A DNA stretch of 41,990 nucleotides from a virus, in IMG/VR virus record IMGVR_UViG_3300027759_000162, positions 1-41,990 of that record. One strand, 5' to 3'. Under the pieces are notes generated by a model. It did no database searches. It was not told the DNA's origin and saw only the letters and a list, made by a program, of their open reading frames with translations. Every line of letters starts with the position of its first letter. The stretch's first letter is position 1. Made by a program: the position numbers and the translations under genes. Positions 1,587 through 35,937 of the stretch are shown here, in pieces.

Positions 1587-3257
1587 ATGGCACAAATGCC
1601 TAAAGCAAGTGACCTATTTGGTGATGTAGCACCACGCGAAGCAGCAGAACTTCAAGAACAATATCTTGGAGAACTAAATAAGTCTTTCGCTAACGCTTCA
1701 CATACACCGGGTATGGCTCCACAGGCTGACCCTGTTGCTCAATTGGAATCACTTGTTGCAAACAAGTCACTTTCACCTGATGCAGTTTCAGCACTTAACT
1801 CAGCACTAGCAACACAACGCACTATCTCAGCAGATATTGCTAAGGAAATTACACTTACATCTCCTCTTTCAACATCATTCGCGGCGTTTGACTTGGAAGC
1901 ACCTGCAAAGTTGCTCACACCTCGTCCAACACCTTTGCGTAACAAGATTGTTCGTAAGAAGGGTGTCGGTACTTCACACCGCATTAAGCGCATCACAGGT
2001 TACACAGGTACAGGTACTGGCGGACAAGGAAACATCTGGCCGGGAATTACACAGTTCACTCAGAACGATTTTGCTCCGGGTGCTGGTACTCCACTTCTTT
2101 ACGAGCGTGGACCACAGATTTCCTACACAGCGGATGACTTAGTTCTTCCGTACAACTCATACTCACTATCTGACCAAGTATCTTTTGATGCTAACTTCTC
2201 AGGTATGGGTTACCAAGACCTTCGCCAACTATCATCAACTTCAACTCTATACGCAACAATGCTTATGGAAGAACGCATGATGCTAATGGCTCGCGGTACA
2301 GGTTCAGGTTACTCAGGCGCACTTGCTGCACCTGCAACAGTAACTCTAACTTCACCAGTTGCGTCAGGTTCACAAACAGCACTTGCAGCAACAACATATT
2401 ATGTATATGTAACTGCTGATGCTGGCGCATTTGGACAGTCTGTTGTTTCAACAGTTCAGTCACACGCAGTTTCAGCGGGCGATGTTCTACAAATCAATGT
2501 TTCAGCAGTAGCGGGTGCCATTGGCTACCGCGTTTATGTTGGTACAACAACAGGTACAGCAAACTGTACTTATCAGGGTCGCACAACAACTACACAATTT
2601 GTAGTACAAGGCGCCGCGTCTACACAGACAACTGGTAACACAGCACCTCTTACAACAACAGGCGCACTTGCTTCAACAGCGGCATCTGATACATCTGCAT
2701 ACGCAACAGGTTATGACGGAATTCTTCCAACAGTTCTTAACTCAAGCATTTCAGGTGCAATTAACAACATTGCTTCTACATTCTCAACTTCTAACCCAGG
2801 TGCAGAATTCCAGCAAGTATTTGGACAACTCTATGATGCTGTAAAGGCTGACCCAGATGAAATCCTACTTAACGGACAAGACCGCAAGCAACTTTCTGAC
2901 ACCATCAAAAATGGTTCAACTGCAAACTATCGTCTAAATCTTTCACAGACTGAGACAGGCGATTATGTTGGCGGTGCTGTTATCGGTGCATTAAACAACG
3001 AAATCACAGGCAAGATGGTAAACCTTACAGTTCACCCATGGTTGCCACAAGGCGTTGCTCCTGTACTTTCCTACACATTGCCAATTCCTGATACTGAGGT
3101 ATCAGATGTATGGGCAAACATTCTTGTGCAGGATTACATGGGTATCCAATGGCCTGTTAACCAATTCTCATACGACTTCTCTACATACTTCCGCGGTACA
3201 TTCATGTGCTACGCGCCAGCATGGAACGGCGTTGTATCAGGAATTGTCTCTGCATAA
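1587..3257 (+). CDS. Major capsid protein with an inserted Ig/Fn3-like domain
   Basis: A 556-residue protein directly downstream of the protease/scaffold, with a GGAACT-type ribosome site. Residues 1-100 are polar and helical and could be a cleaved N-terminal delta region. Residues 100-240 (KIVRKKGVGTSHRIKRITGY, then an EERMMLMARGTG helix) and 360-556 look like an HK97-fold capsid of the SPO1-like kind. Between them, about residues 245-345, lies a Thr/Ser/Ala-rich beta region (TYYVYVTADAG...IGYRVYVGTT) resembling an Ig or fibronectin type III domain, probably displayed on the outer face of the shell. The length is well above the 300-400 residues of a plain HK97 capsid subunit, and the insert accounts for part of that. 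Identity rests on position and general fold features. Confidence 0.85.
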   Translation: MAQMPKASDLFGDVAPREAAELQEQYLGELNKSFANASHTPGMAPQADPVAQLESLVANKSLSPDAVSALNSALATQRTISADIAKEITLTSPLSTSFAAFDLEAPAKLLTPRPTPLRNKIVRKKGVGTSHRIKRITGYTGTGTGGQGNIWPGITQFTQNDFAPGAGTPLLYERGPQISYTADDLVLPYNSYSLSDQVSFDANFSGMGYQDLRQLSSTSTLYATMLMEERMMLMARGTGSGYSGALAAPATVTLTSPVASGSQTALAATTYYVYVTADAGAFGQSVVSTVQSHAVSAGDVLQINVSAVAGAIGYRVYVGTTTGTANCTYQGRTTTTQFVVQGAASTQTTGNTAPLTTTGALASTAASDTSAYATGYDGILPTVLNSSISGAINNIASTFSTSNPGAEFQQVFGQLYDAVKADPDEILLNGQDRKQLSDTIKNGSTANYRLNLSQTETGDYVGGAVIGALNNEITGKMVNLTVHPWLPQGVAPVLSYTLPIPDTEVSDVWANILVQDYMGIQWPVNQFSYDFSTYFRGTFMCYAPAWNGVVSGIVSA

Positions 3258-3343
3258 TGTGTCTTGAATGTGGTTGCCATCAACCTGCCATTAATCATGG
3301 TAGAGATGATGTATCAACTGCTGAAATGACTACGCAAGAATAA
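3257..3343 (+). CDS. 28-residue Cys-rich microprotein
   Basis: The ATG overlaps the capsid stop (TAATG), so translation is probably coupled to the most heavily made phage protein. The product begins MCLECGCHQP and has three Cys and two His in its first 14 residues, enough for a small zinc site, followed by NHGRDD and a polar tail. Short proteins starting in this way occur in other actinobacterial phages as far as I recall. The function is unknown. No other gene fits this gap. Confidence 0.5.
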   Translation: MCLECGCHQPAINHGRDDVSTAEMTTQE

Positions 3344-3391
3344 AACTTAATAGTTCCTGAGCATGAATTAAAAAGGCTCACCACAAAATGA

Positions 3392-13648: not shown

Positions 13649-13894
13649 ATGGCGTTAGCGGATTCATTAAAGAAGGCTACAGACTCGGCTCCACGCAACC
13701 AAGTTTGCTCTGTATTAAAGGCAAAGGAAAAAATGACCAAAGAGGACATTGCGACATTAGAAGTGGCAATTGCGGATAGGTCAATTAAGGCAAGCGTATT
13801 AGGTAGGGCATTACGCGCTGAAAAGATTGATGTTACAGAAGGCACAATAACGCGACATAGGAATGGCTGGTGCAAGACCTGTGGCGCTAACTGA
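13649..13894 (+). CDS. 81-residue HTH-like protein
   Basis: The ATG at 13649 follows GGAAGGA. An upstream in-frame TTG exists, but it falls in the terminator tail. The product (MALADSLKKATDSAPRNQVCSVLK...LRAEKIDVTEGTITRHRNGWCKTCGAN) has helices ending in a TITRHRNG recognition-helix pattern plus a C-terminal CKTC pair. Similar small proteins stand ahead of phosphoesterase genes in other actinophages as I recall. DNA binding is likely; a terminase-like or regulatory role is open. Its end overlaps the next gene by 32 bases. Confidence 0.7.
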   Translation: MALADSLKKATDSAPRNQVCSVLKAKEKMTKEDIATLEVAIADRSIKASVLGRALRAEKIDVTEGTITRHRNGWCKTCGAN

Positions 13895-14903
13895 TGCTCT
13901 AAACGAAGAACAAGGCAACGAGGAATCCGCCGAACTTCGCAAAGCATTAGTCCAAGCGCAGAAACAACTAGCCAAAGCCAAGTTGCGCAATGATGAATTA
14001 GTTACAGCCACGCACCGAGGCGCATATGAGGCTATGTTGGCTTTAGGTAAAGTCCAACCAGTACCAGCACCAGCAACCGATAAGCGCAAAATTAAATCCG
14101 AGGTTGCTCTTATCCATTCAACCGACTGGCAAGGTTCCAAAGTAACTTCATCTTACAATAGCGAGATTATGCGTAACAGAGTTATGCAATTCTCGGACAA
14201 AGTAGTACACCTTACAGAATTACAACGCCAGCACCATCCAGTTAAAGAGTGTGTGGTTATGTTTGGCGGCGATATGGTTGAAGGTTTATTTAATTACCCA
14301 GCGCAATTATGGCAAATTGATAGTTCGTTATTTGGACAGTTTGTAAATGTATCGCGCCTTTGTGTTGATTTTGTGCGCTCGCTATTGGCTAACTTTGAAA
14401 AAGTAACTGTCGTTGCTGAGTGGGGTAATCATGGGCGAATTGGTGGCAAGCGTGCCGAAGTTCCAAAGAATGACAATGTGGACAGAATGGTTTATGAAAT
14501 GTCGCGTCAGGTACTTGCTGGCGAAAAAAGATTAGTCTGGGAAGATTGTCCAGAGGATATACAAGAAGTTGAAATTGGAAACTATCGCGCTTTACTAATG
14601 CATGGTGATGAACTAGGTCGGTCAGGGTTTGCTAGTCCTGCGGCTTGGATTGCCGGTGCGAATCGTTGGAAAGCGGGAGCGCATGACTACGATTTTCACG
14701 ATATTTATTTAGGTCATTACCACCGCCACGCACAAGAACCTATACAAAAGCATTACAACATTTATTGGACAGGTTCTACAGAATCCGACAATAGATATGC
14801 GCGTGATTCCATGGCGGCAAGTGGTATGCCTAGCCAACGATTACATTTTGTAGACCCAATTAAAGGTCGCATCACAGCCCAGTACCAAGTTTGGCTTGAT
14901 TAG
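13863..14903 (+). CDS. Calcineurin-like metallophosphoesterase
   Basis: A 346-residue protein. The first 60 residues form a coiled coil (ESAELRKALVQAQKQLAKAK). The metal-binding motifs are STDWQG (D88, with Q90 in place of the usual His), FGGDMVEG (D137), WGNHGR (N189-H190), LMHGDE (H247) and GHYHRH (H285, H287). The fold is that of Mre11/SbcD-type nucleases and related phosphoesterases, and a DNA-end or nucleotide phosphodiester substrate is likely. The Asp-x-Gln form of motif I recurs in phage members of the family as I recall. It is followed by the long gene-free region. Confidence 0.8.
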   Translation: MAGARPVALTDALNEEQGNEESAELRKALVQAQKQLAKAKLRNDELVTATHRGAYEAMLALGKVQPVPAPATDKRKIKSEVALIHSTDWQGSKVTSSYNSEIMRNRVMQFSDKVVHLTELQRQHHPVKECVVMFGGDMVEGLFNYPAQLWQIDSSLFGQFVNVSRLCVDFVRSLLANFEKVTVVAEWGNHGRIGGKRAEVPKNDNVDRMVYEMSRQVLAGEKRLVWEDCPEDIQEVEIGNYRALLMHGDELGRSGFASPAAWIAGANRWKAGAHDYDFHDIYLGHYHRHAQEPIQKHYNIYWTGSTESDNRYARDSMAASGMPSQRLHFVDPIKGRITAQYQVWLD

Positions 14904-14929
14904 CCAATCCCTGAACCAAGGTCGCGGAC

Positions 14930-15270
14930 AGAGATGGCTATTGCTAGCCAATCCCGTCACCGTAGTTATGCGGTATAGAATGGGAGCCGAAGCCCAGTTG
15001 CGCCATATGTAGGTACTGATGGGTAACTTATCTAGGCAACTCGTATTAGATAAATCAGTCCTACTCGCCAGTTTTCGATATCAGGCTCGCTTGGTAGATG
15101 ACAAGAAAATAAGTCCCCGTATGACGGCTCCACCGCGGGTATCAGCCGCGCCCAAGGTTCTGACCACCTTGATAGTGGGTGGAACCATATACCCATAAAT
15201 AGGAAAACACCGCAACGGTCAGAGTCACGGCGTTTCCTAAAGTCATGGCGCATATAGCCGCATGGACTCA
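14930..15270 (-). ncRNA. Candidate structured non-coding RNA (novel)
   Basis: Gene-free DNA with nested helices. P0 is TGGCTA/TAGCCA (14935-14950, loop TTGC). P1 is TGCGCCAT (14999-15006) with ATGGCGCA (15245-15252). P2 is GTAGG-T-ACTGAT (15009-15020) with ATCAGTCCTAC (15054-15064), stacked on TTATCTA/TAGATAA (15028-15034, 15047-15053). P4 is GGCTCCACC (15126-15134) with GGTGGAACC (15178-15186), enclosing hairpins GCGG/CCGC (15135-15149) and CAAGGT/ACCTTG (15153-15171), both with 7-base loops: a three-way junction. P5 spans 15201-15238. Two plus-strand A-C mismatches (15128-15184 in P4, 15209-15231 in P5) become G-U pairs if the RNA is read from the minus strand, and a possible minus-strand promoter lies just beyond (TTGTAA 15306-15301, TAAGGT 15282-15277). 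It does not look like tmRNA, RNase P or SRP RNA. The strand is uncertain. Confidence 0.5.
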
Positions 15271-15288
15271 GACCTAACCTTACATCCT

Positions 15289-15398
15289 GTTATCAAAAAG
15301 TTACAAAAGAAACGCCGATGGTTGTTTACATGGCAGGTCAAACAATGGATAGTTAAACCATCAAACCACACGGGGTTCGATAAAACTAGGAGGCAAAA
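15289..15398 (+). promoter_or_regulatory. Early promoter and leader E1
   Basis: Two near-copies of an 11-bp unit (GTTATCAAAAA, GTTACAAAAGA) start at 15289 and 15300. A promoter-like pair TTTACA (15325-15330), 17 bases, GATAGT (15348-15353) follows. The leader contains CCACACGGGG and ends AAACTAGGAGGCAAAAATG. The element at 20353 matches nearly throughout, and those at 16632 and 23587 share the promoter plan or the leader. The same 11-bp units also lie under the possible minus-strand promoter of the RNA candidate. Confidence 0.7.
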
Positions 15399-15701
15399 AT
15401 GGTTACAACATCAACAACATCATACGAATTTAATGCTGGTGACCAAGCACCATTTAATCACAAAGCATCACACGCCGCAGACCAAGAATTTTGCTATGTA
15501 TGTGGTCGCAAACTTGGTGCAAACCCACTTTACTTTGAAGTAATTGAAGGTGGAGATTTACGCTTACAAAATGGAACAGAGTACGACATCCAAAATGACC
15601 GCGGTTATATGGGATGCTTTCCAGTTGGTTCAACTTGTGCAAGTAAATTTGCACCAAACATTTTGTTTCACATGAAGGACTTTGGAAAGGCAGGTGCATA
15701 A
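15399..15701 (+). CDS. 100-residue Cys-containing protein, first gene of early operon 1
   Basis: The start is fixed by AGGAGG seven bases upstream. A short polar N-terminus (MVTTSTTSYEF) precedes FCYVCGRKLG and a later MGCFPVGSTCASKF, four Cys that could bind one zinc. The protein is probably small, soluble and abundant, given its strong leader. No named family is recognised. Its N-terminal STT-SYE resembles that of the operon-opening gene at 20460 (STT-YE), and the DNA similarity of the leaders runs into the first codons. Confidence 0.8.
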   Translation: MVTTSTTSYEFNAGDQAPFNHKASHAADQEFCYVCGRKLGANPLYFEVIEGGDLRLQNGTEYDIQNDRGYMGCFPVGSTCASKFAPNILFHMKDFGKAGA

Positions 15702-16186: not shown

Positions 16187-16642
16187 ATGCAAACATTTTT
16201 ACCTTACAAATCATTTAAGCAATCAGCGCAAGTGCTGGACAATAAGCGATTAGGCAAACAACGCGTAGAAGCGTATCAAGTTATTCGCGCATTATGTGGC
16301 GAAAGTAAAGGTTGGGTACATCATCCTGCAACAGTAATGTGGCGCGGGTACGAAAATTACCTATGTAAATATGGCGCAATTATGTGTATTGAATGGATGC
16401 AACGCGGGTTTAAGGATTCGCTACTTAAAGAATTCTTGGATTACTACGAGTTTTTTGATGAAATTAAACCGTGGTGGTATGACTACGAACCTTTACATAT
16501 TAGTCATCAATCCAATCTGTATCGCAAAGACCCTGTGCATTACTCCATGTTTGCGGATGCACCTATAGACCTACCCTATGTTTGGTGCGAAACGCCCAAC
16601 ACATATCATTTAGGCACAAACCGCGAGGTTGTTTACATCTAG
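16187..16642 (+). CDS. MSMEG_6728-like protein (pyrimidine-dimer glycosylase-like)
   Basis: A 151-residue protein opening MQTFLPYKSFKQSAQVLDNKRLGKQRVEAYQVIRAL and continuing GWVHHPATVMWRGYENYL, H-x-SNLYRKDPVHYS and DLPYVW. This is the recognisable pattern of the MSMEG_6728 family, often annotated as pyrimidine dimer DNA glycosylase/endonuclease V-like in actinobacteria and their phages. The true activity of the family is not settled as far as I know, so a role in repair or base processing is inference. Its 3' end overlaps the -35 element of the next promoter. Confidence 0.8.
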   Translation: MQTFLPYKSFKQSAQVLDNKRLGKQRVEAYQVIRALCGESKGWVHHPATVMWRGYENYLCKYGAIMCIEWMQRGFKDSLLKEFLDYYEFFDEIKPWWYDYEPLHISHQSNLYRKDPVHYSMFADAPIDLPYVWCETPNTYHLGTNREVVYI

Positions 16643-20352: not shown

Positions 20353-20459
20353 GTTATCAAATTGTTATCAAAGAAATGCCGAATCTACCCACAGGTCGGT
20401 CAAAACAATTTATAGTTAAACCATCAGCACACGGGCTGGTACAAACTAGGAGGCAAAAA
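20353..20459 (+). promoter_or_regulatory. Early promoter and leader E3
   Basis: Two exact 9-base copies GTTATCAAA occur 11 bp apart (20353 and 20364), then AAAGAAATGCCGA shared with E1. A -10 box TATAGT stands at 20411-20416, with a weak -35 (CCCACA, 20388-20393) 17 bases upstream. ATAGTTAAACCATCA is identical to E1, followed by CACACGGG and AAACTAGGAGGCAAAAA. It is the closest relative of E1. Confidence 0.7.
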
Positions 20460-29822: not shown

Positions 29823-30410
29823 ATGCCAAATCACAATGCAGCCGTTCCAAGCCCAGAGTTGGTAGATAAGGAAATCAAAGTCCTAGAGTTACGCCGTGTT
29901 GGATTAACATGGGTGCGTATCGCTGAGGAAGTTGGCTATAAAGACCACACAGGTGCATACGCGGCATATAAGCGGGCTATTAAGCGCACAATGCAACAGC
30001 CAGCGGATGAACTAAGGGAACAAGAATTAGACCGAATTGACCGCTTGCAGGTGGCTGTATGGCCTTCTGCTATGAAGGGTGACACTAGGGCTGTTTTAAC
30101 TATCGTACGCTTAATGGAAAGACGCGCTAAACTTACAGGGTTAGATATGCCAATTAAAATTGAGCAGGATGTAACCACATGGACAGGCGGCGATTCGATT
30201 GATAGAGCAGTTAGAGACCTCGCATCTTTACTCACAAGAAACGATGCAACTGGCTCAAGCGAGAGTGCAATGGCAGAATATATCAGCGAGAGCGAATCAG
30301 TTACCGCCGGAAACGAATTGGAAAACTTGGTTAATACTCTCGGGGCGCGGGTGGGGCAAGACGAGGACGGGCGCGGAGTGGATAGTATGGAAAGCGATAA
30401 CCAATCCTAA
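29823..30410 (+). CDS. Terminase small subunit
   Basis: A 195-residue protein. The N-terminal HTH (KVLELRRVGLTWVRIAEEVGYKDHTGAYAAYKRAI) would bind packaging-site DNA. ELREQELDRIDRLQVAVWPSAMKGDTRAVLTIVRLMERRAKLTGLD is the typical oligomerisation core of actinophage small terminases. The acidic C-terminal tail (DATGSSESAMAEY...) is encoded over the N-terminal part of the large subunit gene in another frame. The position directly before TerL agrees. Confidence 0.82.
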   Translation: MPNHNAAVPSPELVDKEIKVLELRRVGLTWVRIAEEVGYKDHTGAYAAYKRAIKRTMQQPADELREQELDRIDRLQVAVWPSAMKGDTRAVLTIVRLMERRAKLTGLDMPIKIEQDVTTWTGGDSIDRAVRDLASLLTRNDATGSSESAMAEYISESESVTAGNELENLVNTLGARVGQDEDGRGVDSMESDNQS

Positions 30411-31590
30411 AACCCGCTGGGCTGTAGTCGCACCTACAAGTGCGGATGTTATTGACACCTGCTTTGAAGGTGAGTCAGGCATTATTAGTGTGCTTACTCG
30501 GTATGGCATATATGACGAGAACGCTTGGAACAAATCTCGCAGTTCCTACATCTTGCCTAATGAATCACGCATCAAAGGATTTTCAGCAGAGAAGCCTGAC
30601 CGACTTCGTGGACCACAGCATCATGGTGCTTGGTGTGACGAATTAGCGGCTTGGGCTAGTCCTGAAACATTTGACCAGTTACAGTTTGGTTTGCGATTAG
30701 GTGACAACCCGCAAGTTATTGTTACCACCACACCACGACCAACTAAAATTGTTAAGGAAATCCTAAAGGACCCTGAGACAACTATTACTCGTGGTAGCAC
30801 ATACGAGAATAAAGATAACCTTGCGGCTAGTACGCTAGTTACCTTACAGAAAAAGTATGAAAATACTCGGTTAGGTAGACAAGAGTTATTTGGAGAAATC
30901 CTTGATGACAACCCCGGTGCTTTGTGGACACGCTTAGGCATAGACACGCACCGCGTTACTATTGATTCACTACCACCATTTAGCCGAGTGGTTGTTGGAG
31001 TAGACCCAGCCGTTACTAATAATGAGGACAGCGACAGCACAGGTATTGTTACTTGCGGAATGACCGCTGATGGGCATTATTATGTTTTGGATGACAGCAC
31101 ACTAAAAGCAAGTCCTTTAGAATGGGCTACTGTTGCTGTCAAGCAATACGAAAAGTTTAAGGCTGACCGCATTGTTGCTGAAACAAACAACGGCGGTGAC
31201 CTTGTAATACATTTGCTACAACAAGTAAAGCCAACGGTATCAACCAAGAAGGTTACTGCAACGCGGGGTAAGCACTTACGAGCAGAACCTATTGCGGCTT
31301 TATACGAACAAGGGCGCGTACATCATGTGGGTTACTTTGGTGACCTAGAGGACCAAATGTGTGAATACGAACCCGGAATAACACAGGACTCGCCTGACCG
31401 AATGGATGCATTGGTTTGGGCGCTTACTGAATTGAGTGAAGGCTCAGCGGCAATTAACTTCCTATCTTCAATGGCTGTTTTTTGTCCAAAATGCAAGACG
31501 CCTTATGCCAAATCTGTACGCACCTGTCCAAGATGCAATATTTCAATAGGAGAATCTAATGCCAGCACAGTCACTAAGTCAGACTCCTGA
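30244..31590 (+). CDS. Terminase large subunit with C-terminal zinc ribbon
   Basis: 448 residues from ATG 30244; an in-frame TTG at 30199 would add 15. Walker A is SGRGWGKT (33-40), Walker B AWCDE (D132-E133), coupling motif TTTPRP, and the nuclease acids D254 (VGVDPAVT), E313 (VAETNN) and D388 (RMDALVW). It is the packaging motor and headful or site-specific nuclease. Residues 414-431 add a zinc ribbon, CPKC-x(10)-CPRC, after the nuclease domain, which is unusual. It overlaps the small subunit by 167 bases out of frame and the next gene by 32. Confidence 0.88.
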   Translation: MQLAQARVQWQNISARANQLPPETNWKTWLILSGRGWGKTRTGAEWIVWKAITNPKTRWAVVAPTSADVIDTCFEGESGIISVLTRYGIYDENAWNKSRSSYILPNESRIKGFSAEKPDRLRGPQHHGAWCDELAAWASPETFDQLQFGLRLGDNPQVIVTTTPRPTKIVKEILKDPETTITRGSTYENKDNLAASTLVTLQKKYENTRLGRQELFGEILDDNPGALWTRLGIDTHRVTIDSLPPFSRVVVGVDPAVTNNEDSDSTGIVTCGMTADGHYYVLDDSTLKASPLEWATVAVKQYEKFKADRIVAETNNGGDLVIHLLQQVKPTVSTKKVTATRGKHLRAEPIAALYEQGRVHHVGYFGDLEDQMCEYEPGITQDSPDRMDALVWALTELSEGSAAINFLSSMAVFCPKCKTPYAKSVRTCPRCNISIGESNASTVTKSDS

Positions 31591-31918
31591 CCCGCTAAAC
31601 ATTACCGTTCGCCAAAATCAGGAATGGGCTATCAACTTTAGTTACCAAGATGCTAACGGCGCGGCTATTTCATTGGCTGGATATACACCTATTTTGCAAT
31701 TTCGCACATCTGCATTGGCTAGAACATCTGTATTATCATTAACTGTTGGTAACGGAATTACTTTTAACGCAACAACAAAGCCACAAGTGCAAATTGATAC
31801 TGGTATTACAACTCCACCGGGAAAGTATGAGTGGGACTTAAAATGCACACCAGCAAATGGTGAAGCAATTTACTTAGGTCGCGGCATTGTGCAAGTAGAC
31901 GCTGAGGTATCTCGCTAA
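31559..31918 (+). CDS. BppU-like baseplate/fibre base protein
   Basis: A 119-residue beta protein (LNITVRQNQEWAINFSYQDANGAAISLAGYTPILQFRTS...VQIDTGITTPPGKYEWDLKCTPANGEAIYLGRGIVQV). The 'RQ.......Y.D..G..I.L.GYT...Q.R' and 'Y.WDL......G....L..G...V' patterns match the small proteins that precede fibre genes and resemble the N-terminal domain of BppU. It likely links the collagen-like fibre to the tail tip. It starts inside the terminase gene with AGGAG upstream. Confidence 0.65.
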   Translation: MPAQSLSQTPDPLNITVRQNQEWAINFSYQDANGAAISLAGYTPILQFRTSALARTSVLSLTVGNGITFNATTKPQVQIDTGITTPPGKYEWDLKCTPANGEAIYLGRGIVQVDAEVSR

Positions 31919-34900
31919 TGGCTGATGAAATAATTGTAACCCCTGTTGTTGCAGACATTATTGTTAGTGCAGCAGGTTCTCGTGGTATCCAAGGAACACA
32001 AGGAGTACAAGGCAGACAAGGTACTCAAGGCGTTCAAGGAACAACTGGTATTCAAGGTGCTGTTGGTATTCAAGGCACACAGGGCGTTCAGGGATTGCAG
32101 GGGTTTCAGGGAACACAAGGCGTTCAGGGAACTCAAGGTATACAGGGCGCACAAGGCTTGCAAGGGGTACAAGGAACACAAGGTGTGCAAGGTACGCAGG
32201 GCATTCAAGGTGTTCAGGGTGTTCAAGGTACTCAAGGAATTCAGGGAACGACTGGTTTACAAGGACTTACTGGAACACAGGGTTTAACTGGAATTCAAGG
32301 GGCAACTGGTGCGCAAGGTTTAACTGGTGCGCAGGGAACAACTGGGTTGCAAGGTTTAACTGGTATTCAGGGTTCAACTGGCGCGCAAGGAACTATCGGC
32401 GCACAAGGAACCACAGGATTACAAGGTTTGACTGGTATTCAAGGTTCACAAGGATTGCAAGGATTAGTCGGCGCGCAAGGCACTACAGGTGCGCAGGGAA
32501 CACAAGGCACAACTGGTATTCAGGGAAGTTTTGGTACACAAGGAACACAAGGTCTGCAAGGAACTATTGGTAGCCAAGGTGTAACTGGTACTCAAGGTGC
32601 GCAAGGCGTGACAGGCGCAAGCGGTACATCATCATCTATCTTTGCTTATCAATCAGATACAGCCGCAACAACACCACCACCTGCTGGCGGCGATATTATT
32701 TGGAGCAATGTTGTACAGGTAAGCGCAAGCACTTTATACATCTCGCACCAAACCGCTAGTGGTACAAGCGGCGTTCAAGACATTGACATTTTGTTGGATA
32801 ACATCAAAATTAACGACATCTTGTTTATTCAAGACCCTCTTTCATCACTTAACTATCAAGAGTGGCAAGTTAATGGCACACCTACATCTGTGCCTAATGT
32901 TTACTTTACATTTCCAGTAGCGTTACTATCTAGTGGCGGAACAGGCACAACAGGATTTGCTAACAACAAAGATATTTTGCTTATTACGCAAACATTGGGT
33001 ATTCAAGGAACTACTGGTGCGCAAGGAATTATTGGAGCGCAGGGAACAGTAGGTCTACAAGGACTAACTGGAACTCAAGGTGTTGCTGGTAATCAAGGCA
33101 CAACTGGTAGCCAAGGTACACAAGGCACAGTAGGTATTCAAGGCGCAACTGGAATTCAAGGCGCAGACGGCACACAAGGCACGATTGGTCTGCAAGGATT
33201 TACTGGTGCACAAGGCGCAAATGGAACACAAGGCACACAGGGTTTAACTGGTTTACAAGGTACAACTGGTGCAACAGGTTCACAAGGACTTAATGGCACA
33301 CAGGGAACAACAGGCGCGCAAGGTTTAATCGGCTTACAAGGTACAACTGGCAGTCAAGGTACAAACGGAACACAGGGTACTCAGGGTTTAATTGGGTTGC
33401 AAGGTGTCACAGGTAGCCAAGGACTAACAGGTATTCAAGGTGCTACAGGTACTCAGGGTACGACTGGCGCACAAGGTACGACTGGCTCACAAGGTATTAG
33501 CGGCGCCAGCATCCTGCCAACAGATAACAGTTGGTCAGGTGCAAACACATTCACAATTGCAAGCGGTACATCTGTACCGATCACAATTCAAAACAATGGC
33601 ACTGGCAACTCATTTGTTGTCAATGATGTGGCTTCAGATACCACGCCGTTTGTTGTTACTGCTACTGGAAATGTTGGCATTGGTAATGCAAGCCCAACTT
33701 ACACACTAGATGTTAGTTCTACTGCAAGAGTTGGTGGAGCAACAACAAATGCTGGAACTGGTTTACTTGTAAATGGAAGCGCATACCTTGCAACAACTAC
33801 AAACTGGAATTATGCAGGACTTGGTTTAATCAGAAATGCGGCAAATACTTCAACGCCACGATTTATTGAAATGGCTTTAGATGGAGATTCTCTAACTGCA
33901 ACAACAATTGGTGCTACTAACTCAATTTGGGGCATTTACGATTCATCACCAACTACTGGTTCAACATCATCAGCACTTAACTCTGTCATGGGTTACGGCG
34001 CTTACGCTGGTCACCAATGGTTTAACAATGGGTCTGAGAAGATGCGCATTGATTCAGGCGGTAGCGTGCTTATTGGCTCAACAAGTGGTGGCGCACAAAA
34101 GCGTGGACTTTCAATCACTAGCGGTAATGATGGTTCGTCTCCCGGTGGTATTTTTATCTTGTCAGCCAGCGCCGCAGGTGGAGATGGTGCAACTGTTGAA
34201 GCAATTGGTCGGCGTTTAGACGGCAATGGGTCGCGGTCTTTTGCAGGAACAGTCGCTTTAGCAAAAGTTAGAACTGATGCAGCGGTTGGAAGTGGTGCTG
34301 TTCTTGGAAGCGTTGTATTTGGTGGAAACCCAACAGGAACAACTGCGGCAAGCGTTTCTTATTCGGCATCCATGATTGCATACGCAGACGGCGCTTGGTC
34401 TAGCACATCTGCGATGCCATCAGGTTTAGCGTTTTACACAGGTTCAACTGGTACTGCACTTATTACTGCAAATGCAGATACTGGCACATTGCGTATGGTG
34501 ATTACAAGTGGTGGCAATGTCGGAATTGGAACTTCAACCCCTGCAACTTATAGTTTGTTGGCGGTTGCTTCAACAGCAGGTCAAAGCACCCCTAGAGTAA
34601 TTTCCATGCTTAACAATAGGTCGTATGTGGCTGGAGACCTTAGCGGCGTAATGATTGTTGGACTTGCTGGCAATGGAACTGTTGGTTCACACGATTACGG
34701 TGCTATTGCTATGAACGCAAATGCCTCATTAGCAGGTGGGGATGGTTCAGGAGCAACAACAACATTTTATGCTGGCGGTCAGTCAAGTAGCAAACTATCT
34801 ACACAAAAGTATTTGGAAGCAAATACTAGCGGTGCTCTTGGACTTGAAAATGTTTCTTTATGGACTGCGGGTTCTTCTCGTTTGCATATAAATGTTTCAG

Positions 34901-35937
34901 GCAATGTCGGCATCGGCACCACCTCACCTGCTGCAAAGCTAGATGTCAATGGCTCGATCAAGAGCGACAACCTTTCCAGCGTCAACGCCGTTCTGAACTC
35001 GTCCTTTAATGTTTGGCAAAGAGGCACCACAATTTCTTTGGCGGCTTCAACCGTAAATGCTTACACCGCAGACCGTTGGTCAATCACAACTGGTGCAAAC
35101 CAAGCAATGACAATATCTCGTCAACCAACTTCTGACACAACTAACTTGCCAAACATTCAGTATTGCGCACGAGTGCAAAGAAACTCAGGGCAAACTGGAA
35201 CTGCTGCAATAACATTGTTACAAGCGATGGAAACCGTTAATTCAATTCCGTTTGCTGGAAAACCTGTGATTGTTTCATTTTGGGCTAGAAAAGGCGCGTT
35301 GTATAGTGAAACAAACAGTTACCTTAATGGAATTGTTTATTCAGGCACAGGAACTGACCAAACACCATTGGTAGGGTACACAGGTGTTGTTCAAGCGCTG
35401 GGTACAACATTCCTATTGACTGCAAATTGGCAAAGATTTACTGTCACATCTGCAACAATTCCATCTAATGCAACCGAATTATCAATATTGTTTAGTTACA
35501 CGCCAACAGGTACAGCGGGCGCAACCGATTACTTTGAAGTGACTGGCGTTCAATTGGAACTTGGGAATACTGTAACCCCGTATCGCTCAAACCAGCCAAC
35601 TTACACAACCGAATTCACGGCTTGTCAGCGGTACTTCCAAAAAGTAGATAGTGTTATTTATGAGCCATCAAGTTGTGGTGGCTTTGCTCCAAATGGTTAT
35701 CTTTCAAGGGTGTTTCCAGTAACAATGCGAGCAGCACCAACAATTACTTTTTACAATATAACTGGTGGAGCAGGTTCAATTTCTTTGTATGTTGGAACCG
35801 TCAGGTCTGACAGCACAAATGTTTCTGCAATTGGCTCTTACATTTGGGGTTACTCAGGAAACGCTGTAGGTCCGTGGGGTACTACTGCAGATGACGGATT
35901 ATTGGCTTACACCTATCAAGCGGTTGCGGAGTTGTAA
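31918..35937 (+). CDS. Collagen-like receptor-binding tail fibre
   Basis: The largest protein, 1339 residues. Residues 23-238 are 72 Gly-x-y triplets and a second block has 57, separated by a beta domain (SSSIFAYQSDTAATTPP...). The third position is Gln in about 80 triplets and often Thr; proline is absent. Next come repeated 'GNVGIG-(N/T)-(A/S)-(S/T)-P...LDV' units typical of fibre shafts. The C-terminal domain (LNSSFNVWQRGTTISLAA...YTADRWSI...FEVTGVQLELG) is the jelly-roll carbohydrate-binding tip seen in many phage fibres. It would form a long trimeric needle. The shared start/stop with the BppU-like gene and a downstream chaperone-like gene support this role. Confidence 0.88.
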   Translation: MADEIIVTPVVADIIVSAAGSRGIQGTQGVQGRQGTQGVQGTTGIQGAVGIQGTQGVQGLQGFQGTQGVQGTQGIQGAQGLQGVQGTQGVQGTQGIQGVQGVQGTQGIQGTTGLQGLTGTQGLTGIQGATGAQGLTGAQGTTGLQGLTGIQGSTGAQGTIGAQGTTGLQGLTGIQGSQGLQGLVGAQGTTGAQGTQGTTGIQGSFGTQGTQGLQGTIGSQGVTGTQGAQGVTGASGTSSSIFAYQSDTAATTPPPAGGDIIWSNVVQVSASTLYISHQTASGTSGVQDIDILLDNIKINDILFIQDPLSSLNYQEWQVNGTPTSVPNVYFTFPVALLSSGGTGTTGFANNKDILLITQTLGIQGTTGAQGIIGAQGTVGLQGLTGTQGVAGNQGTTGSQGTQGTVGIQGATGIQGADGTQGTIGLQGFTGAQGANGTQGTQGLTGLQGTTGATGSQGLNGTQGTTGAQGLIGLQGTTGSQGTNGTQGTQGLIGLQGVTGSQGLTGIQGATGTQGTTGAQGTTGSQGISGASILPTDNSWSGANTFTIASGTSVPITIQNNGTGNSFVVNDVASDTTPFVVTATGNVGIGNASPTYTLDVSSTARVGGATTNAGTGLLVNGSAYLATTTNWNYAGLGLIRNAANTSTPRFIEMALDGDSLTATTIGATNSIWGIYDSSPTTGSTSSALNSVMGYGAYAGHQWFNNGSEKMRIDSGGSVLIGSTSGGAQKRGLSITSGNDGSSPGGIFILSASAAGGDGATVEAIGRRLDGNGSRSFAGTVALAKVRTDAAVGSGAVLGSVVFGGNPTGTTAASVSYSASMIAYADGAWSSTSAMPSGLAFYTGSTGTALITANADTGTLRMVITSGGNVGIGTSTPATYSLLAVASTAGQSTPRVISMLNNRSYVAGDLSGVMIVGLAGNGTVGSHDYGAIAMNANASLAGGDGSGATTTFYAGGQSSSKLSTQKYLEANTSGALGLENVSLWTAGSSRLHINVSGNVGIGTTSPAAKLDVNGSIKSDNLSSVNAVLNSSFNVWQRGTTISLAASTVNAYTADRWSITTGANQAMTISRQPTSDTTNLPNIQYCARVQRNSGQTGTAAITLLQAMETVNSIPFAGKPVIVSFWARKGALYSETNSYLNGIVYSGTGTDQTPLVGYTGVVQALGTTFLLTANWQRFTVTSATIPSNATELSILFSYTPTGTAGATDYFEVTGVQLELGNTVTPYRSNQPTYTTEFTACQRYFQKVDSVIYEPSSCGGFAPNGYLSRVFPVTMRAAPTITFYNITGGAGSISLYVGTVRSDSTNVSAIGSYIWGYSGNAVGPWGTTADDGLLAYTYQAVAEL

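Follow-up and report, generated by a model that had tools for sequence, protein, structure and literature searches.

The locus and its neighbors

The window analyzed here is the whole of a 41,990-base virus record, and the stretch under study covers positions 14904-15398 (495 nt). It is bordered on the left by an exonuclease gene (13863-14903; phrog_284 in PHROG) and on the right by a small gene with no assigned function (15399-15701). Between them we place a structured non-coding RNA on the minus strand (14933-15177), with a core from 15177 to 14972 followed by two 3' hairpins, P2 and P1, that reach to about 14933; the placement draws on two models (R1 and R2), 22 family members and covariation. 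In the window, as in two relatives (L004 and L007), the direction of the RNA leads into the antisense strand of the exonuclease gene, and no leftward gene follows it.

The window exonuclease is 44% identical to that of Actinomycetia phage DSL-LC01 (lake water), and from this best annotated relative alone we infer an actinobacterial host. The source phage is a lake-water phage, and the RNA family would be spread among diverse freshwater phages. Elsewhere in the window, a gene of the Pyrimidine-dimer DNA glycosylase family (16187-16642; Pyr_excise, E 6.6e-23) lies in the phage early region, and positions 31918-35937 encode a probable tail fiber of 1339 aa that has long collagen-like G-x-Q-G repeats. 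DSL-LC01 also has a collagen-like protein close to its exonuclease homolog.

Homologs of the RNA in uncultured phages

Relatives of the window exonuclease in IMG/VR provided 80 loci, and 4 more came through relatives of the small gene at 15399-15701. A profile built from three close copies also detected the element in L084, L006 and L007. Six minus-strand sequences, aligned with MAFFT and not fitted to structure (alignment A3), gave model R1, which was run over 50 whole records and found two unseen members, L098 (E 7.5e-16) and L099 (E 3e-9). Combined with R1, a DNA search pattern based on the P3 loop region added L106, L113, L123, L122, L125 and L126 as well as L110, L111, L115, L117, L120 and L121. 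Model R2, built from 20 members, detected L137 and L138, neither of which was in its training set, bringing to four the never-seen members recovered by the models. The window copy scores 169-221 bits with R1 and R2; with R2, members score at least 41.9 bits versus at most 15.4 for decoys that match the pattern only.

The family thus far comprises at least 22 distinct members on uncultured phage contigs and falls into three subfamilies: A (window, L004, L005, L084, L006, L007, L106, L113, L123), B (L098, L099, L110, L111, L115, L117, L120, L121, L137, L138) and C (L122, L125, L126). All are metagenomic contigs and some subfamily B members are near-identical, so independent lineages number fewer than 22.

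Among the exonuclease-bearing records of at least 36 kb other than the window, 4 of 10 carry a detectable member (G008, G021, G052, G013), and no member was detected in the other six (G017, G019, G027, G036, G038, G041). There are two possibilities for this observation: either the RNA is patchy in distribution or it is too diverged for detection in the remaining exonuclease-bearing records. Nucleotide searches against collections of phages and plasmids gave no match to the RNA, and the models confirmed none of the 4 matches from a pattern scan of genome contigs. No member was found in 395 Actinomycetes genomes (strict filters, without a positive control) or in the phage records DSL-LC01 and Dagobah; ct2KA10 yielded a 9.8-bit fragment only.

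The core fold and its covariation

Across the 22-member family the core is a run of seven conserved hairpins, P9 to P3, described here in RNA order on the minus strand. P9 (15153-15171, CAAGGT/ACCTTG, 7-nt loop) has 4 of 4 modelled pairs double-changed in the 20-member alignment, and P8 (15134-15150, CGCGG/CCGCG, with a 7-nt loop that reads YYRRYAC in subfamily A) has 5 of 5, with 97.5% of its cells paired. An earlier note, made from the window sequence, had set these two 7-base-loop hairpins in a three-way junction; the hairpins are upheld, but the closing stem is confined to the closest relatives. In the 20-member alignment P7 (15117-15127) is CCG/CGG in the window and CGCC/GGCG or CACC/GGTG elsewhere, with a closing G-C/G-U pair. 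P6 (15090-15105, CTTG/CAAG) lies where that alignment is imperfect, and read by hand across members it appears as CTTG/CAAG, TTTG/CAAA or CCTGTC/GACAGG. P5 (15067-15086), from the same alignment and hand reading, is GCC/GGC in the window, GCCGG/CCGGC in L006 and CGATTG/CAATCG in L084.

P4 (15009-15064) is built of an outer helix (15054-15064/15009-15020) and an inner one (15047-15053/15028-15034), and 16 of its 16 pairs are double-changed. It corresponds to the long stacked helix that the earlier note called P2, which this strong covariation marks as real. Its 12-nt loop contains the conserved ACGARYYGCC. The last core hairpin, P3 (14981-14996, TGGG/CCCA), has a closing pair that is C-G, A-U or U-A among members and, in most other members, a GNRA tetraloop (GCAA, GAAA or GTAA), a feature partly built into the DNA search pattern that also holds in L084, L006, L098 and L099.

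The P4 loop is predicted to form a pseudoknot of 6 bp (14996-15041, minus strand), in which AGTTGC (15036-15041) pairs with GCAACT (14996-15001), the six bases just 5' of P3. All 120 of 120 cells are paired in 20 members and 4 of the 6 pairs are double-changed. The two sides read AGUUGC/GCAACU in the window, AAUCGC/GCGAUU in L006, AACCGC/GCGGUU in L122, AAUCAC/GUGAUU in L098, AACUGC/GCAGUU in L099 and AACCGC/GUGGUU in L084. In the search pattern one side of the pseudoknot was only loosely set (GYRRTT) and the loop was free; because of this looseness, and because L084, L006, L007, L098 and L099 were found without the pattern, the complementarity is not a product of the search. The earlier note had drawn the architecture correctly in part of its helices but had overlooked this conserved pseudoknot and several hairpins.

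The earlier note had named covarying pairs among homologs as a check on the fold, and they are plentiful. In the six-member alignment A3, 23 of 42 pairs are double-changed, with 36 double-changed cells versus 12.6 after shuffling; the helices scored there were hand-picked from the same sequences, and controls with slid partners nevertheless collapse. In the 20-member alignment (A7) with the pseudoknot, 35 of 48 pairs are double-changed, with 226 double-changed cells versus 72 shuffled, and 92.7% of cells pair compared with 36-45% when partners are slid by 1-3 columns. A7 was fitted to the model, which biases its counts towards structure, whereas A3 was unfitted. By these counts the predicted helices are preserved by compensatory change although the letters differ. 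Chance structure is excluded because of the A7 covariation relative to its controls and the score gap between members and decoys.

Two long-range pairings did not survive comparison. The 8-bp pair that the earlier note had closing the structure over 240 bases is absent in L005 and mismatched in L004 (alignment by eye), and a pairing of GAAACGCC with GGCGUUUC was dropped since it is not conserved.

Strand, coding potential and folding energy

The earlier note had taken two A-C mismatches on the plus strand, which become G-U on the minus strand, as a hint of strand. The unfitted A3 alignment agrees: read as the minus strand, it has 11 G-U cells versus 2 A-C. On that strand the P3 tetraloops read GCAA, GAAA or GUAA in most members. 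The whole 495 nt also folds better than shuffled sequence on the minus strand (z -3.1, compared with -0.6 on the plus strand), and the plus strand as RNA is ruled out by these z-scores together with the G-U and A-C counts. Comparison of the members thereby places the predicted RNA gene on the minus strand. Folding energy carries the earlier note's expectation of a better-than-shuffled fold for the whole stretch but not for the 206-nt core, where z is 0.01 in the window and averages -1.0 over 16 members (antisense -0.7). Because the core is near shuffled sequence, folding energy alone is no proof of it; the proof of the predicted structured RNA is covariation, not stability.

No frame, whether on the plus or the minus strand, stays open across all members. 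A protein-coding reading is ruled out because no frame is kept across members, and the region is gene-free, as the earlier note had described it.

Comparison with known RNA families

Against Rfam 15 at gathering thresholds, the whole window gave no match except one distant tRNA, a tRNA-Gln (ARAGORN) 11.5 kb from the RNA, and the stretch 14904-15398 gave none at E up to 5. Scanning the window and the loci of 10 members against Rfam with cmscan gave nothing credible, and permissive thresholds added nothing credible either. Matches to RsmY and MIR8670 lie outside the RNA and under their gathering scores, and were rejected. The covariance models of GOLLD, ROOL and phi29 pRNA matched neither the window nor the 10 member loci. 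There was likewise no Rfam match to tmRNA, RNase P, SRP or 6S RNA, and ARAGORN found no tmRNA, which agrees with the earlier note's failure to recognize any of the four. Six member loci of 9-16 kb contain no tRNA genes. In the literature searched, whose coverage is partial, no such RNA is described. Homologs, covariation and the lack of a credible Rfam match together bear out the earlier suggestion of a minus-strand phage RNA not described before. What is new, relative to Rfam and to that partial literature, is the RNA family; structured phage non-coding RNAs of unassigned function are a known category.

GOLLD and ROOL come closest; both are large phage RNAs without known function that form RNA cages (PMC12286853). 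GOLLD, found in phages and prophages, builds up in lytic growth (PMC12286853, PMC7567579) and resembles the new RNA in being a phage-encoded structured RNA with no kept frame and with a conserved and a variable region. It differs in size (at least 800 nt, versus about 245 nt in the window and perhaps 480 nt in subfamily B), in being often near tRNA genes and in matching Rfam, neither of which holds for the new RNA. ROOL, also from phages and prophages (PMC12286853), shares many helices and pseudoknots and is thought to act as RNA alone; the new RNA again differs in having no Rfam match and no tRNA neighbors. The 14-mer cage is a feature of GOLLD, and self-assembly has been shown for ROOL. Since it fails their covariance-model and tRNA-neighbor tests, we do not file it under GOLLD or ROOL.

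The pRNA of phi29 is likewise a structured phage RNA, and two subfamilies of the new RNA adjoin packaging genes; however, the new RNA has no Rfam match, its window copy is 15 kb from the large terminase, and its size and fold are unlike those of pRNA as far as can be judged. The 0.8-kb non-coding RNA of phage ICP1, the most abundant phage transcript there, similarly comes from a gap without ORFs in a lytic phage (PMC7567579), but it belongs to another host group and size class and was compared by description only.

3' hairpins and flanking signals

In subfamilies A and C, but not in L007, the core is followed by P2 and P1, both read by hand. P2 (14959-14974, minus strand) is ACCG/CGGT. P1 (14933-14953, minus strand) is GATTGGCTA/TAGCCATC with a GCAA loop and has the forms CGGCTT/AAGCCG and TGGCT/AGCCA in relatives. 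Subfamily B has another, longer 3' domain with the conserved motif GATATAGTTCRTANGGTGATAT; in L098 (1730-2010), L099 (1737-2000), L137 and L138 the motif continues as GATATAGTTCRTANGGTGATAT ... CCCCGTCAAA. Little signal came from running RNAalifold on the MAFFT-aligned 3' domains.

A terminator-like hairpin (15203-15237), whose T-rich tail is on the minus strand, precedes the core in the RNA direction. The earlier note had counted this element (its P5, 15201-15238) as part of its multi-helix fold; we separate it from the conserved core. By eye, similar hairpins occupy the equivalent place in L004, L005, L006, L007 and L123. The hairpin probably serves to halt leftward read-through or else makes up a 5' domain.

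A search for promoters on the RNA strand of the window found nothing above chance; the candidate into the RNA, TTGTAA-18-TAAGGT (15277-15306, minus strand), is weak (p about 0.44 versus shuffles), and a -10-like TATGGT lies closer (15184-15189). Subfamily B adds support for the minus strand: every member but L099, whose version is weaker, has a promoter-like TTGCAN-16-TGCTATNNT about 40-65 nt ahead of the core in the RNA direction.

Outside the RNA, on the plus strand, a rightward promoter (TTTACA-17-GATAGT, 15325-15353) and an early-operon leader occupy 15289-15398, with an operator-like GTTATCAAAAAGTTA at 15289 in the leader. This promoter and leader are repeated at 20353-20458 with 76% identity, and each copy precedes a rightward operon. 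Comparable promoter-leader repeats with operator-like GTTATCWAAAAGTTA are seen in L004, L005 and L084. In subfamily A the RNA is always flanked by LexA-like or other repeated operator sites. LexA-like sites CGAACRNNYGTTCG, for which the yardstick was the Streptomyces-derived LexA consensus tCGAAC-N4-GNNCGa (PMC9380542), occur in L106, L113, L123, L103, L104, L101 and L120 at one or two per 8-16 kb, always near the RNA; window-type phages have GTTATCWAAAAGTTA beside the RNA in their place. These motifs suggest that expression of the RNA is tied to the phage early or induction switch.

Gene context and possible roles

The neighbors of the RNA differ between subfamilies. In subfamily A it lies mostly downstream of the exonuclease, leftward, opposing a rightward early operon, and several members have a small leftward gene between exonuclease and RNA. 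L005 has such a gene (about 3080-3350), short and leftward, with its own promoter and terminator; the window has none. In subfamily B the RNA is divergent from the large terminase (phrog_38) or other small genes, and in L138 its neighbors are a small gene and one resembling a kinase gene. In subfamily C it adjoins HNH or HNH-terminase genes. One conserved RNA core therefore unites three phage subfamilies with different neighboring genes.

Sequence comparison establishes a homologous family of predicted minus-strand RNAs with conserved helices, a pseudoknot and no kept frame. As an explanation of the whole, we consider it quite likely that minus-strand 15177-14933 is a phage non-coding RNA of a family outside Rfam. 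Because the neighbors and their orientation vary between subfamilies while the core stays constant, the RNA is probably an independent gene acting in trans. It would fold as a chain of hairpins from P9 to P1, locked by pairing of the P4 loop with the strand just 5' of P3. It might then be made in lytic growth and serve as a compact scaffold, either self-assembling or bound to a conserved machine of the host, the ribosome or RNA polymerase; such a role, in the manner of GOLLD and ROOL, is a tentative proposal by analogy, and we think it rather unlikely as it stands. A broader idea, to which we give somewhat less than an even chance, is a new class of phage RNA machine (a self-assembling scaffold, a ribozyme or part of a phage or host machine) unrelated to GOLLD, ROOL, OLE and pRNA. 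Few phage-encoded structured RNAs have a known function. GOLLD and ROOL likewise lack one, and an additional, smaller and unrelated class would allow repeated evolution of the same RNA device to be tested. The family's secondary structure and pseudoknot can be put to the test, and its covariance model lends itself to scanning metatranscriptomes.

Other roles fit parts of this picture. One is that of a leader or antitermination RNA controlling the adjacent operon in cis, as HK022 put RNA or a riboswitch does. In its favor, the RNA sits where transcription units begin; in subfamily C, HNH or terminase genes follow in its own orientation, and a small gene does so in L005, L006, L106, L113 and L123. 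The frequent location beside terminase or HNH genes in subfamilies B and C would fit either a cis or a packaging role. Yet the genes that follow are non-homologous, several members have LexA-like sites between RNA and gene, and in the window, L004 and L007 the RNA enters the exonuclease antisense with no gene to control; we regard such a leader as improbable. Less probable still is a packaging RNA that works in the DNA-packaging motor as phi29 pRNA does. Its position beside the large terminase (subfamily B) or HNH and HNH-terminase genes (subfamily C), its compactness and loops that could join copies are consistent with this, but the window large terminase (30199-31590) is 15 kb off, L138 has other neighbors, the Rfam pRNA family gives no match and related phages have no detectable copy. 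Nor are ordinary large-terminase phages known to require an RNA of this kind.

About as improbable as a packaging role is an immunity or switch RNA that base-pairs with early transcripts, like the P4 CI or P1 C4 antisense RNAs. The subfamily A RNA does lie in what would be a typical switch region, flanked by early promoters that bear LexA-like or other repeated operators. Shortness and diversification mark immunity RNAs, however, whereas the present core is large and structured and has been preserved in distant phages. That the locus acts as DNA (a replication origin with hairpins), or is chance structure, and yields no RNA at all is hardly credible: the element does sit in a regulatory region, but G-U pairs on one strand, GNRA loops and a pseudoknot with G-U changes are RNA signatures.
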